Source: Microvenator marinus
GTDB lineage: Bacteria > Myxococcota_A > Bradymonadia > Bradymonadales > Bradymonadaceae
Direction of reading: 5' to 3'
NCBI RefSeq assembly: GCF_007993755.1
Contig: NZ_CP042467.1
Coordinates: 62,001 to 126,000 of the forward strand
DNA: 64,000 nucleotides
The notes under the pieces were generated by a model that was not told where the DNA came from, made no database searches, and worked only from the letters and a program-made list of their open reading frames with translations. Shown here one piece after another: positions 47,630-53,417 of the stretch. A program made the position numbers and the translations under genes. The number at the start of each line of letters is the position of its first letter. The first letter of the stretch is position 1.

Positions 47630-50098
47630 TTAGAGGCAGACTCCATTTTGGCAAATGTACTTTTGTTCTTGAGGGCAATCGGCGTCCGTGACGCAGCCTC
47701 GAACGCTGTTCTCCCAACGCAGATAAGGGATGACGATACGGTCCGCGGTCTGCGGTGGATTCGGCCCGTTGAAGTTCACGCGGTTGACGATGGCGTCGTA
47801 GTCCCAGCCATCGGCGCGGCTTCTATCCGGGCTCAAGATGGTCTGAGTAGAAGCTTGTCCAACCTTCACATTGATGCTCGGAGGTACTGGAACACCGCGT
47901 AAACGAAGTCCGCTGGCCAGTCCGACAGACGCGGAAGCAATCTGCTCTAGCGTTGACGTGAGATCAGCTTGACAGATGTTGCCCGCGAGCCCACCAGTGC
48001 GGTTTACCACGCGGTCAATACCAGCGGCTGCTTCAGAGGCGATGGTACAAGGCGTGCCGGGAATCCAGTAAATTCCGAAGATGGTCGCGTTGATGCCTGG
48101 ACGAAGGAAATAGTCGATAAATGGTTGAACGTGTGGGTCCATGGCGTTTGGATCCCAGCCCGGCTCGGTGGACGGGTCGCTCGGTGGCTCCCCTGCTTGT
48201 CCTGCGTCTCTCCAGCCCATACGAGCTTGGAAGTGGTCGTCAAACTCATCGGTGACCGAAATCAAGATGGTCGCGGCATCGGGCCGAAGCTTGGTATTGT
48301 CGGTATCGGAGCGGGGCAGAGCTCGGTCAATCGCGGCCGCGCCCATGGTCAGGGTGTGTTCGCCGGCAATCCTCAAGCCCACTGAGCTTGGGTCGAGCTC
48401 GTCCACGCAATCTTTGAACTTTTGAACGTCATTGGTGAAGTTCGCGCCGTTCTTGTCACAGAGCTTTCCATTGGGGAGCACGTACTGGAAATTTCCGAAA
48501 GGAATGGGTTGGCAGGAGGTTGCCCCGCCCATGGTCATCAAGTTTTTGACGTCCTGAGAGATGGTCGGGTCGGTCGCGAGCTTATCGCATGAGCCTGAGG
48601 CCACGGCGATGCGCCAGTCGATGTTCGACTGCTGCAGAATCTGAGCAAACTGGTCGGCGAAATTCTTCACGGCTTCAATTTCTTCACTCATGGAGCCGGA
48701 GCCGTCCAAAAGCCAGATGAAGTCGACCTTTGCCTGAGAAGTCACGCGATAAGAGACGCAGTCCGCCTCAAGGGTGTCACCCACCCCCGCGATACCAGTA
48801 CCCCCTGCGATATCGTCCACGCGAATGGCCCCAGGTGCCGTATCGGTGTTGTAAAGGCTTTCTGGAATGACTGAGAGCGCCACAATGGCAGATGCCGGAC
48901 GCTTCACCACTTGGAACACGGCCAGCGAACGATCGGTAGAAGCAGCCGGGGTGAAATTACCCTGAACGTTGGGGTTGAGTGTGGTTCCCGCGAGACGGCT
49001 CAGAATAGCGTTTCTAGCCGTGTCAGCCTGCAGACCACCTGGCAGTTCTACCACGCCTCCTGCGATGGCCTGGTGTCCGTCGTGAGTAAGGATGCGTCGG
49101 CCGCTTGTGCGCACGGTTGAGCCTGCATAAGCGTTGCGAATCTGCTGTGTCACCCAGGCTGCCGATTGTTCAGCCGTTGCTGCGTTTGGAGGCACGAATG
49201 AGCCTACAAGGCCCGCATATCCTGCAGGTGCGTCGTTGAATGCGTGCGCCGTAACACCCGGGATTGGGGTGCTTGTGAGGCCCGGCTCAAGGGCGATTTG
49301 GTAGTCCGCGGTATTGTTCGTGAGGAATAGGGGCTGGACTAGATTCGCCGTGTCTTCGGGCGTGCAATCCAGGTATTGAACTTCGTCATTGTCGGGTGTT
49401 CCGTCACCGTCAGTATCTGTCTTGCAAGGGTCGGACTCTATACCTGCACACTCTGCGGTGTATTGGCGGTTGACGCAGGTGCCGAGCTGGCCGTCGAGGT
49501 TCTCGTCCTCTAGATTGTCAGGCAGCCCGTCGCCGTCGGTATCCGTGGACGTTGGGTCCATGCAGCCGCTCGCGACCTCGTCACCGTCGGTGATGCCGTC
49601 GCCGTCTGAGTCAGGGTTGAGTGGGTCTAGGCCGCGCGCGACCTCATCGCCATCCTCAAGTCCGTCGCCATCTGTGTCCGCACTCCGAGGGTCCGTCTCG
49701 CCGGCATCAAATCGGCAGTTGCGGTTGACGTCTTCTTGCCCGTCAAGAAGTCCGTCTCCGTCCGTATCTGGGCGGGCCGGGTCAGTGCCGAGTTCGCATT
49801 CACACGAGTTCGTCAGGCCATCCAAATCACTGTCGATTCCAACAGCGCAGCGGTCTTCTTCGGAGACATCAGCAGGCATGTCTAGGAACGGATTGTCCGG
49901 CATATCGACGCCCGCATCGCCTTCGGTTCCGCCGTCCATGCCGCCTGGTCCGCCACCCGAACGAGCCACGCATTGGCCTGTAATCGGATTATACGATTCA
50001 CCTGGAAGACACCCGGGCTCGGTGGTCTTATTGTCGTCTGAGCAACTAAGGATCGAGCTTGCGATGATTAGAGAAAATAGCTTTGATCTGAATTTCAT
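47630..50098 (-). CDS. large lipoprotein with thrombospondin type 3 repeats and a von Willebrand A domain
   Basis: This 822-residue surface or periplasmic protein runs from ATG 50098. The signal ends at lipobox ILSC (SSILSCSDDN). A Gly/Pro/Asp-rich linker is followed by about six calcium-binding TSP3 loops (about 85-260), recognised by DTDGDG and DSDGDG repeats. A middle domain (about 270-440) is unassigned. A VWA domain (about 465-750) starts with WLLDGSGSMSEE, the metal-ion adhesion site DxSxS in the form DGSGS. The C-terminal ends with Cys pairs (RGCVTDADCPQEQKYICQ). The layout suits adhesion or matrix binding; ligand unknown. A candidate promoter lies at 50134-50162. Confidence 0.85.
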   Translation of the reverse strand: MKFRSKLFSLIIASSILSCSDDNKTTEPGCLPGESYNPITGQCVARSGGGPGGMDGGTEGDAGVDMPDNPFLDMPADVSEEDRCAVGIDSDLDGLTNSCECELGTDPARPDTDGDGLLDGQEDVNRNCRFDAGETDPRSADTDGDGLEDGDEVARGLDPLNPDSDGDGITDGDEVASGCMDPTSTDTDGDGLPDNLEDENLDGQLGTCVNRQYTAECAGIESDPCKTDTDGDGTPDNDEVQYLDCTPEDTANLVQPLFLTNNTADYQIALEPGLTSTPIPGVTAHAFNDAPAGYAGLVGSFVPPNAATAEQSAAWVTQQIRNAYAGSTVRTSGRRILTHDGHQAIAGGVVELPGGLQADTARNAILSRLAGTTLNPNVQGNFTPAASTDRSLAVFQVVKRPASAIVALSVIPESLYNTDTAPGAIRVDDIAGGTGIAGVGDTLEADCVSYRVTSQAKVDFIWLLDGSGSMSEEIEAVKNFADQFAQILQQSNIDWRIAVASGSCDKLATDPTISQDVKNLMTMGGATSCQPIPFGNFQYVLPNGKLCDKNGANFTNDVQKFKDCVDELDPSSVGLRIAGEHTLTMGAAAIDRALPRSDTDNTKLRPDAATILISVTDEFDDHFQARMGWRDAGQAGEPPSDPSTEPGWDPNAMDPHVQPFIDYFLRPGINATIFGIYWIPGTPCTIASEAAAGIDRVVNRTGGLAGNICQADLTSTLEQIASASVGLASGLRLRGVPVPPSINVKVGQASTQTILSPDRSRADGWDYDAIVNRVNFNGPNPPQTADRIVIPYLRWENSVRGCVTDADCPQEQKYICQNGVCL
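49385..49845 (-). repeat. DNA repeats encoding thrombospondin type 3 loops
   Basis: On the plus strand the block repeats variants of CCGTCGCCGTCGGTATC, the complement of codons for D-T-D-G-D-G. About six units occur with variable spacing. It is coding repetition within the VWA lipoprotein gene, not an independent element. Confidence 0.75.
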
Positions 50099-50187: not shown

Positions 50188-50526
50188 TCAATCTTCACAT
50201 GCCAAAACGGCCGGCTCCCAGTTGGGCCGGTCGGGTGCCCAATATGCCTCCTCCCAAAACTCAGGCGTGCACTCTTCAAAGCCTTTTTCAAGATAACGTT
50301 GAAACGCAACAAGTCGCTTGGGCGCATTGACACTGCATAGCGTGGTCCACTCGTGAACTACCAAAGGAGGAGGATCTTGCACGGGTCGTGTGTCTACGAC
50401 GCGAGGCGATGCAGGGTCGAGGAGGCAGAGTCTATCTGGGTCATATTCGTAGGCGAGCACATCTTCGTCATCGACACAGGCCAGTGACGTAGCTGAAAGG
50501 ATGGCCATGAAGAGGAGTTGTCGCAT
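50188..50526 (-). CDS. small Cys-containing lipoprotein
   Basis: From ATG 50526 the 112-residue protein starts MRQLLFMAILSATSLAC, a compact lipoprotein signal with lipobox SLAC. The mature part is short, acidic and Trp-rich (VVHEWTTLC, EFWEEAYWAPDRPNWEPAV) with four further Cys residues that could form two disulfides. No family was recognised. A longer in-frame opening exists upstream but overlaps the next gene and lacks a lipobox-compatible start. It is the last gene of the four-gene secreted cassette. Confidence 0.65.
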   Translation of the reverse strand: MRQLLFMAILSATSLACVDDEDVLAYEYDPDRLCLLDPASPRVVDTRPVQDPPPLVVHEWTTLCSVNAPKRLVAFQRYLEKGFEECTPEFWEEAYWAPDRPNWEPAVLACED

Positions 50527-50563: not shown

Positions 50564-51694
50564 CTACGGTTCAGGCTCGACATTGGGTGGACATTTTTCA
50601 CGTTTGCTCGGGCTTCCATCCGGACAAATCGAGTTCCAGAATCGCACATCATCCAGTCGCGTTTTCTCAAGGTTCGCACCTTCCAAATTGGAGTGAGCAA
50701 AGATGGCATTTCGAAGGTCGGCACCCGTAAAGTCCACCCCTCGAAGGTCCACACCACCGAAAGTTGCTCGAAACAAGCTTGCACCCCGGAGGTCGAGACC
50801 ATGCAAGTCTTCCGATTGGATGTGGTGGACCGTGCTGACCGTTCGTACTGGCGTGGCCTTCGTGTGGGAGCGAATCCGTGTACTGAGTGCAGGTGCTTGG
50901 TCAAGGAATCCATTTCTCGCCATGAAATGTCTGACCTGACGTAGGTCGCCACCGCCGTAGAAGATGTCCTGCGGACCTTGGGCAGGGTCTAAAACGAGCA
51001 GTGTTGGAACGGCCGGAACTAATCCAAAGGATGTGGCCAAGTCCTTATCTTTGAACCCATCTACAAAGTAGATATGCTTCTGTGCGGCCTCTGGGAGCCT
51101 CGATAGAAGGTCGTGCATGCGCGACGCTGCCATGCACTCAGAACTCCCAAAAAACACGACGTGTTTGCCTTCTGGTTCTGCGTCTTTAAGTGATGGAAAC
51201 TCGGCGAGGGTCGGAGAGTCAGAAAAGACGTCATGCTCAAACCCGTAGAAACTCGGCTGCCCAAGATTCAGAACCACTCCAGGGTAGTAGTCTTCCTCTC
51301 CAATCGGCGTTGGAATGAAGAGAAAGGCACTGGGTAGGTTGGGTGCGTCGGGGACGTCTGCAATGGCGGCTTTGGAGCCAGGCTTTCGCAAGAACTTATC
51401 CGCGTGTTGTAGGAGAGGATCATCTCCCGGAAAAGTCTCGTTCGCCGCTTCGAGGAGGGTTAGCGCATAGGTTCCTTCAATCTCGACAATCGGAGTGTCC
51501 TTAAAACTTGTCCCTTTAGTCTTATCGTAAGCGTAGAGAACCCCGATCAGATTGTTTCCGAAGTCTTCTTCGTAGGCGACCTCATCCGTGTCGGCTTCGG
51601 GAGGCGCCGAGTTGTTGGGAGAGGGTGGAGCTGATGAGCAGTTTGCGAGCACCAGCATCAGCAGGAGCGTTTGACTAGAGTGGACAATCCGCAA
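50564..51694 (-). CDS. lipoprotein with thioredoxin-like and pentapeptide-repeat domains
   Basis: The best start is TTG 51694, giving 376 residues with signal SSQTLLLMLVLANC (lipobox LANC); it overlaps the upstream gene by 20 bases. After a Pro/Ser linker there is an unassigned domain, then a thioredoxin-like stretch (about 190-285): HVVFFGSSECMAASRMHDLL, IYFVDGFKDKDLATSFGL and the cis-Pro loop AVPTLLVLD. The CxxC is reduced to one Cys (ECMAAS), so disulfide exchange is doubtful. A short pentapeptide-repeat helix follows (about 300-355, DLHGLDLRGASLFRATF) and the end is Cys/Pro-rich. The fusion is unusual. Role unknown; probably in the periplasm or on the surface. Confidence 0.7.
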   Translation of the reverse strand: MRIVHSSQTLLLMLVLANCSSAPPSPNNSAPPEADTDEVAYEEDFGNNLIGVLYAYDKTKGTSFKDTPIVEIEGTYALTLLEAANETFPGDDPLLQHADKFLRKPGSKAAIADVPDAPNLPSAFLFIPTPIGEEDYYPGVVLNLGQPSFYGFEHDVFSDSPTLAEFPSLKDAEPEGKHVVFFGSSECMAASRMHDLLSRLPEAAQKHIYFVDGFKDKDLATSFGLVPAVPTLLVLDPAQGPQDIFYGGGDLRQVRHFMARNGFLDQAPALSTRIRSHTKATPVRTVSTVHHIQSEDLHGLDLRGASLFRATFGGVDLRGVDFTGADLRNAIFAHSNLEGANLEKTRLDDVRFWNSICPDGSPSKREKCPPNVEPEP

Positions 51695-52823
51695 GTTGAA
51701 TCTCGGCGACGGGCGAAGACGTGTATGGGAGAAGAGGATAGTCAAGTACCTCTTCGGTGGCATAAAGAATTTGGTCTCCTGCCAAAGTAGACCGGAAGTC
51801 AGTGGGCGGATTACTACCCACAAAAGGGATAACACCGAGGCAAGTCATAGTCGTGGAGGTCGCGTCGAAAACAAGCGTGAACGTTCCAAGAAAATTCCTG
51901 TATGGAATCGCCACCCAATCGTCGTTGGCGTAAACACTTGATCCGCCAGTCTGATTGTCGCCGAATTGAGCCGAGACTTCCCACGTGTCCGCTAACTCAA
52001 ACGGGTTCCGGGAATATACGTAAAGTCTACTTTCCTTCGGAGTGCCTACAGCTATGGGCATGTAGATGAAATCTTCAGAAGCCTGGATACCCTGACTATT
52101 ACCTTCAATCGAGTCCGAGACTCCGACGAGAAGGTCATCCTCAGTATCAGCCAATAGATTCCACACCAAGACTTGCTTAAAGCCGGGTTGGGGAGCGATC
52201 TGCTCGTAGAGAGTGTCATCGCGCAAGACGTAACTGGCGGGGGCCACTCCGATTTGCGGATATTCTGCGAGGTAAGAAGCCCTAGAAATAGTGCGAGTGA
52301 CGCGCAAATCCAAAAGGGTCTCTTCTACGACCAGGAGTCGTTCTCGGCAGGCCAAGAGCAACTTCTCGCCGTAACTCAACACTCGTTGGCAATCTGGCTC
52401 GGGAAGAACCTTTGAGGGGACAATTGTTGCGGGATTCTCATAGTATTCCAAGTTCAACGTTTCAGATTGCCTTACGAGTGCATATCCCGACTTGTAGGCG
52501 ACGATTGAGCGGACATACGTATCGCGACGCAATTCGGTTACCTCAAATCGTTCGCCTTCAATTCCGACCAATGTGCCTAAGCCATCGTCATAGGAAACCC
52601 AGCGCCTATCTGAAAGTAGGACAGGGGGCTGAGACAAAACGACCGTGATAGGGTCAGGACCCATCTCCACATCCGCGTCACTATCTAGGTAGGAGTCATT
52701 TCCTTCGTCCAAGATAGGCATATCGTCACTTGAGTCATGGATGCCGAAATCCACTGCCGGTTCGACTGGTGACGAGCAAGAACACCAGCACAATGCGAGC
52801 AAAGACAAAAGCAAGTTCTTCAT
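51675..52823 (-). CDS. secreted lipoprotein, possible beta-propeller
   Basis: This 382-residue protein starts at ATG 52823, overlapping the upstream stop by ATGA. Signal: MKNLLLSLLALCWCSC, with several Cys near the lipobox. An acidic linker (about 20-55, Asp/Ser-rich) is followed by a strand-rich body with repeating Tyr/Val/Leu blades such as RRWVSYDDGLGTLVGIEG and KQVLVWNLLADTEDD, reminiscent of a seven-bladed propeller; this is a fold guess. No known family. It is the second gene of the cassette. Confidence 0.6.
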   Translation of the reverse strand: MKNLLLSLLALCWCSCSSPVEPAVDFGIHDSSDDMPILDEGNDSYLDSDADVEMGPDPITVVLSQPPVLLSDRRWVSYDDGLGTLVGIEGERFEVTELRRDTYVRSIVAYKSGYALVRQSETLNLEYYENPATIVPSKVLPEPDCQRVLSYGEKLLLACRERLLVVEETLLDLRVTRTISRASYLAEYPQIGVAPASYVLRDDTLYEQIAPQPGFKQVLVWNLLADTEDDLLVGVSDSIEGNSQGIQASEDFIYMPIAVGTPKESRLYVYSRNPFELADTWEVSAQFGDNQTGGSSVYANDDWVAIPYRNFLGTFTLVFDATSTTMTCLGVIPFVGSNPPTDFRSTLAGDQILYATEEVLDYPLLPYTSSPVAEIQLADCPL

Positions 52824-53365
52824 TGGCAAAGATGTCCGAAATTGGTTTCGCATGCTTCAAGTTGACCAATGAACGGTTCACCGTAGTCGAGATCGCAGGA
52901 CGCCTCGCTCACCGTGTGGGACACTACGATGTGAAAGATGTCGGTACCCGAGAGATGAACAGCTTGAGCGGTCCCGTAAACTTCGTGGCTTTCCCACCAT
53001 ACGGGGGTGCTGTTGACATCATAGGCTGTGAAATTGAAAGAGCCTCCCCCTGTCAGCACGAATCGTACTTCGTTCGCTGGTTGCGGCAATTCAATCACGG
53101 TAACTTGGCCTGGAATGTAGATAGCGTTGCCAATATTGGTGAGGTTATGGATCTGGTACTGCCCCGCCCCGCTTAGAATTTCGAAATAGAAGCCATTAGG
53201 CGAAAGGTAAGGATTACCCACATTTATATACGATGAAACAGGGTAGGAACTGAAGTCTTCCTCAATGCAAGACCTCTCCAATAGATCACAGACTCCCTCG
53301 TCTGGAAATGCGTTGGCCAGCCCGGAATTCGCGCAGATTGCCACGAGCACTAGGGTAGCCAGCAA
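52820..53365 (-). CDS. secreted protein whose natural start is out of frame (candidate phase-variable gene)
   Basis: The open frame (181 residues from TTG 53365) begins inside a signal peptide, LLATLVLVAICANSGLANA, and continues with a strand-rich Cys-containing domain of unknown family. The TTG has no ribosome site. Instead, GGAGG (53393-53397) and an ATG at 53385-53387 lie 22 bases upstream, separated by 3.8 copies of a 5-base repeat. In the present copy number that ATG runs into a stop after 33 codons. One more repeat unit, or two fewer, would join it in frame and give an ordinary signal peptide beginning MNRT. The protein may therefore be switched off here, or the repeat may carry a sequencing indel. 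It heads a tight four-gene unit. Confidence 0.7.
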   Translation of the reverse strand: MLATLVLVAICANSGLANAFPDEGVCDLLERSCIEEDFSSYPVSSYINVGNPYLSPNGFYFEILSGAGQYQIHNLTNIGNAIYIPGQVTVIELPQPANEVRFVLTGGGSFNFTAYDVNSTPVWWESHEVYGTAQAVHLSGTDIFHIVVSHTVSEASCDLDYGEPFIGQLEACETNFGHLCQ

Positions 53366-53366
53366 A

Positions 53367-53385
53367 GTTCTGTTCTGTTCTGTTC
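53367..53385 (-). repeat. 5-base tandem repeat (AACAG, minus strand) at a start codon
   Basis: On the minus strand AACAG occurs three times followed by AAC directly after ATG 53387; counted on the plus strand it is GTTCT x 3.8 at 53367-53385. A unit length that is not a multiple of three makes copy-number change shift the reading frame. Confidence 0.85.
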
Positions 53386-53417
53386 ATGTCCGCCTCCAAG
53401 GCTTTGGGTGAGTTGAG

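Follow-up and report, generated by a model that had tools for sequence, protein, structure and literature searches.

A pentanucleotide (AACAG) repeat that directly follows the start codon of a small secreted-protein gene of Microvenator marinus is, with a probability that we put at about 0.6, a slipped-strand translational ON/OFF switch, among a few contingency loci of this organism. The other stand-out short repeats of the genome are mostly placed in a similar way, a pattern suggestive of secreted proteins being switched ON and OFF at random. The window analysed is a stretch of 64,000 nucleotides (positions 62,001-126,000 of contig NZ_CP042467.1); coordinates with the prefix C1 refer to the genome contig, all others to the window. 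M. marinus is a predatory member of the Bradymonadales, and the strain was sequenced with Illumina HiSeq and PacBio (PMC7460792). The genus has lately been given the name Allomicrovenator (PMC12872784).

In the proposed mechanism 5-base units gained or lost in replication would shift the ATG into or out of frame with the signal-peptide gene, hereafter gene 1, and one in three repeat counts (1, 4, 7 and so on) would be ON. The sequenced clone, with three units, would be OFF and would yield a 33-residue dead-end peptide. In the ON state the exported protein would be made and the overlapping lipoprotein gene (gene 2) would be translated by coupling. The locus would be one of a few in M. marinus at which repeats of different types (periods 5, 7 and 8, poly-C and poly-G) are attached to the 5′ ends of secreted or lipoprotein cassettes. 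Slippage, its reversibility, the coupling and a cell-surface role in contact with prey, kin or phage are the parts of this proposal that we infer.

Results

On the minus strand, the Shine-Dalgarno sequence GGAGG (53393-53397) stands five nucleotides from an ATG (53385-53387), the start codon of candidate switchable gene 1, which is followed at once by (AACAG)x3+AAC (53367-53384). The order is CTTGGAGGCGGAC-ATG-AACAGAACAGAACAGAAC-T-TTG-CTG-GCT, and the sequence-only reading had described this arrangement correctly to the base. At the current repeat count the frame from the ATG is out of frame with gene 1 and meets a stop after 33 codons (53286-53387, minus strand), in agreement with the earlier translation. 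The long frame downstream (52820-53365, minus strand) has 181 codons counted from TTG 53365, its sole start at the present count, and a TGA overlapping the ATG shuts it on the upstream side. The TTG has no Shine-Dalgarno sequence, the strong one fitting ATG 53387-53385 instead, which bears out the initial description of a long frame with TTG as the only start and no ribosome site. The gene 1 body (52820-53371, minus strand) encodes a small secreted protein with conserved cysteines, as judged from sequence and homologues, and the signal peptide assigned to it earlier, RTLLATLVLVAICANSGLANA, holds.

Templates with zero to five AACAG units were translated in silico. One or four units joined the ATG to the long frame, giving products of 185 or 190 amino acids, and zero, two, three or five units did not; it had been predicted that adding one unit or removing two would join the frames, and this is what was found. 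Joining counts run 1, 4, 7 and onwards, the present count being three. An in-frame (triplet) function of the repeat was considered and rejected, since five is not a multiple of three.

The array, 3.6 copies or 18-19 bp long, is the sole perfect pentamer array that TRF detected in the window. Its 15-mer AACAGAACAGAACAG is found once in the whole genome (5.85 Mb), and shuffled windows gave an expectation of 0.00 for exact or one-mismatch copies of the array.

Codon usage was examined along gene 1 and its neighbors. The per-codon score is 0.00 in the gene 1 frame, -0.52 and -0.68 in the shifted frames, -0.01 for gene 2 and 0.00 for gene 3, and the gene 1 signature is maintained in each quarter of the gene. 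Because codon usage of the gene body is normal, gene 1 is not decayed. Its protein has no match in Pfam, NCBIfam or PDB, and nothing in these databases linked it to Opa or to any other known outer-membrane family. A single-sequence AlphaFold model was uninformative (pLDDT 39).

Gene 1 heads a series of exported genes on the minus strand. The stop of gene 1 and the start of gene 2 overlap in ATGA (52823-52820), and gene 2 (51675-52823) encodes a predicted lipoprotein (MKNLLLSLLALCWCSCSS). Gene 3 (50564-51694), whose start is uncertain, overlaps gene 2 and encodes a predicted lipoprotein with C-terminal pentapeptide repeats; gene 4 (50188-50526) encodes a small predicted lipoprotein (MRQLLFMAILSATSLACVDDE). 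Gene 5 (47630-50098), coding for a TSP3-repeat/VWA-like predicted lipoprotein, possibly belongs to the same transcription unit. The layout of a secreted cassette headed by gene 1 therefore stands as first proposed, but the count of four genes is to be replaced by at least four and probably five. Given the overlap, gene 2 would plausibly be translated less when gene 1 is not translated, through translational coupling. Sigma-70 scans revealed no convincing promoter for gene 1 or for its paralogue.

This paralogue is located in the same genome at C1:4284011-4284550 and is 32-35% identical to gene 1. It starts as TGGAGGGACC-ATG-ACC-ATC-AAG, with a Shine-Dalgarno sequence and an ATG directly before its signal peptide. 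A gene 1 homologue in another genus begins MRKPTSLIVGIIFTLFSVQASA, its signal peptide again following straight from the ATG. These two starts indicate that members of the family normally start just ahead of the hydrophobic core and, compared with them, the present frame in the window is the odd one out. The overlap between the small secreted gene and the lipoprotein gene is kept in all three pairs (window, paralogue and other genus), measuring 13 nt in the paralogous pair and 10 nt in the other genus. A search of genome contigs with an alignment of the two paralogues matched no relative. At a third gene 2-like locus (C1:3622920-3623040) all that is left of gene 1 upstream is a Shine-Dalgarno region and a C-terminal piece (...ITSILACDF), which suggests an internal deletion of gene 1.

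A census of short repeats was made on a sample of 2.88 Mb, 49% of the M. marinus genome (5,847,748 bp, single contig). Run lengths drop geometrically, with isolated outliers beyond. For period 5 there are 29 runs of 13, 11 of 14 and one of 15, and then a single run of 19, which is the AACAG array, the longest period-5 array of the sampled genome; the longest period-5 runs in simulated 2.08 Mb sequences were 14-16. The period-7 tail ends at 19 and is followed by an outlier of 61 bp, and the period-8 tail, also ending at 19, by one of 23 bp. Among mononucleotide tracts of the sample, A/T tracts end at 8, while G/C tracts reach 8 and then 10, 10 and 13. G/C tracts of 6-9 occur several-fold less often than expected under a Markov model, and against this avoidance the long ones are conspicuous; a whole-genome search found just three G/C tracts of at least 9.

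The period-7 outlier, GCAACAC x8.7 (C1:633560-633620, minus strand), has the structure GGGGAAGAATC-GTG-CAAACAC(GCAACAC)n and is followed by the lipobox LALFALSGC of a predicted lipoprotein of 745 amino acids, whose frame the GTG does not share at the current count. This lipoprotein has a homologue in genome G001. The period-8 outlier, CTCTTCAG x2.9 (C1:5632007-5632029, minus strand), reads GGGAGGAACGC-ATG-AA-(CTCTTCAG)2.9, then the signal peptide MNSSALQLFTFFIIWLFSYTVNA; it is in frame with its short exported-protein gene, and a lipoprotein gene comes next. A C10 tract (C1:4599868-4599877) directly follows MKNLTMCATIFTLVGCA, the last codon being that of the lipobox cysteine, and puts out of frame a 445-amino-acid frame with weak similarity to LipL53 beta-propeller lipoproteins (SBBP/LipL53-like). 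The longest G/C tract of the genome, G13 (C1:4284631-4284643), precedes the ATG of the gene 1 paralogue by 81 nt, with a divergent gene 134 nt away, and no promoter was recognised in its surroundings. The third long G/C tract, G10 at C1:5807805, has no clear gene, which counts against the proposed set. As candidates for faster switching, the 8.7-copy heptamer, G13 and C10 are stronger than the AACAG array. A decamer array, ATCGACGCAA x4.2 (C1:1601027-1601068), also separates two divergent genes whose N-termini are of exported or membrane type.

The layout common to the arrays of periods 5, 7 and 8, i.e. a Shine-Dalgarno sequence, a start codon, a repeat within 6 nt and a signal-peptide-like frame, has a background frequency of 0.26% at random strand positions. 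In each of these periods the single longest array shows it, and it was seen at none of 217 triplet-period repeat sites. The chance of three of three is ~1.4e-7 and that of three of the six non-triplet periods ~3e-6, both figures being optimistic because the layout was defined after the first cases had been seen. A cruder test, with the start codon anywhere up to 45 nt upstream, gave 3 of 12 against 3.6%. Looser TRF arrays close to hydrophobic segments were left out of account, since 18% of random positions pass such a test. Three of the four coding arrays are OFF, where about two-thirds would be expected if slippage were free of frame constraint, the number being small. MutS is present in the genome; no mutator background is therefore implied, and switching would rely on the type of repeat.

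At the window locus we find several features of a contingency locus: a non-triplet tandem repeat in the 5′ coding region, a unit count that sets whether the full protein results (by translation of zero to five units), an array exceeding the repeat background of the genome, and a gene otherwise intact and constrained, as its codon signature and homologues indicate.

Discussion

We favor a small set of contingency loci because the starts of the paralogue and the homologue, the intact codon usage of gene 1 and the similar placement of other outlier repeats at the 5′ ends of exported genes all point to it. The same evidence strengthens the phase-variation reading originally made of the window locus, against which counts the shortness of the array. 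At 3.6 copies it lies at the short end, and its switching rate may be low, since known fast switches usually have more. A review defines phase variation by reversible switching that arises spontaneously and exceeds a threshold rate (PMC11868660), and the AACAG locus stays a candidate for it, as that definition demands a demonstration of reversible switching. The original interpretation is partly supported, and the repeats listed above broaden it from a single unusual start into a consistent handful of candidate contingency loci.

The same low copy number would also fit a recent, essentially irreversible frameshift, in which a 5-base duplication silenced gene 1 in the lineage or the laboratory strain and left an array too short to revert usefully. 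The third copy of the gene pair, in which little of gene 1 is left (a remnant ahead of C1:3623015), tells us that the family can be lost. However, codon usage is intact along all of gene 1, and a chance frameshift would lead one to expect neither two further tail-outlier arrays likewise placed at exported genes nor the longest G/C tract of the genome at the paralogue. We consider such a loss unlikely, though deserving of some weight.

Improbable, in our judgment, is that gene 1 is always on, with the repeat count irrelevant, whether by a start at TTG 53365 (or the adjoining CTG) or by ribosomes slipping on the repeat. The frame is indeed open from TTG 53365, but the strong Shine-Dalgarno sequence matches the ATG and the TTG has none. 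Furthermore, the product MLATLVLV... initiated at the TTG lacks the charged n-region that MNRT... provides, the paralogue and the homologue start at an ATG upstream of the core, and a classical slippery heptamer was not seen. There is very little room for an assembly or sequencing error in the AACAG count. Long-read assemblies can mis-call repeats, poly-G/C most of all, but any short read spans an 18-bp array, and the error would have to comprise whole units, which is unlikely because both Illumina and PacBio were used for this strain (PMC7460792).

The closest parallel to the proposed switch is neisserial opa, with CTCTT pentamers in the leader-peptide coding region and switching at ~1e-3 per cell per generation (PMC3960869), a rate of which the 3.6-copy AACAG array may fall far short. 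As in opa, whose product is a surface protein, a pentamer separates the start codon from the signal-peptide core of an exported protein, and its count sets the frame. In contrast to opa, the unit is AACAG, the copies are fewer and gene 1, which is unrelated to Opa, heads an overlapping lipoprotein cassette; the M. marinus case is known from sequence. In Neisseria pilC1/pilC2, a poly-G tract lies in the signal-peptide region (PMC13190605). The C10 tract right after the lipobox codons is arranged similarly, albeit in another gene and organism and in one genome sequence. A promoter-region repeat switch is described for nadA (PMC2791445). By analogy, G13 upstream of the paralogue could alter expression through tract length, but no promoter is recognised there and the region is shared with a divergent gene.

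Intergenic heptamer repeats occur in other bacteria. M. marinus too has a heptamer array, (GCAACAC)8.7, but it is single-copy, has no counterpart in 20 other genomes of the family and is read through into a lipoprotein frame.

Most work on repeat-driven phase variation has dealt with host-adapted pathogens of small genome size. The literature searched on phase variation in Bradymonadales, Myxococcota or predatory bacteria, itself incomplete, held no account of switching by repeats in this group; the mechanism is known, as in neisserial opa, and apparently undescribed in Bradymonadales. If our proposal is true, the concept would extend to predator-prey, kin or phage conflict via the secreted cassettes of a predatory environmental bacterium, and OFF-state genes at such loci would be mis-annotated as short or missing.

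A broader picture, which we put forward tentatively and would not yet bet on, is a small phasome in a predatory free-living marine myxococcote. The five repeat types would there act as stochastic switches of entire secreted/lipoprotein cassettes, through frame and coupling. Both full copies of one gene family would be independently switched, one by the pentamer and one by poly-G, and cells would be diversified for encounters with prey, kin or phage.

Repeats were also seen in other genomes. Five genomes of the family (G009, G011, G013, G016 and G018) contain many G/C tracts of at least 11, which may represent additional switches or arise by chance where genomes are GC-rich, and are not counted as evidence. 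In genome G004, predicted lipoprotein genes are preceded by heptamer arrays, TCAGCTT x4 (L013:805-832) and AAAACCA/ACCAAGA (L013:7461-7507), and this contig also carries a homologous gene 1-gene 2 pair.
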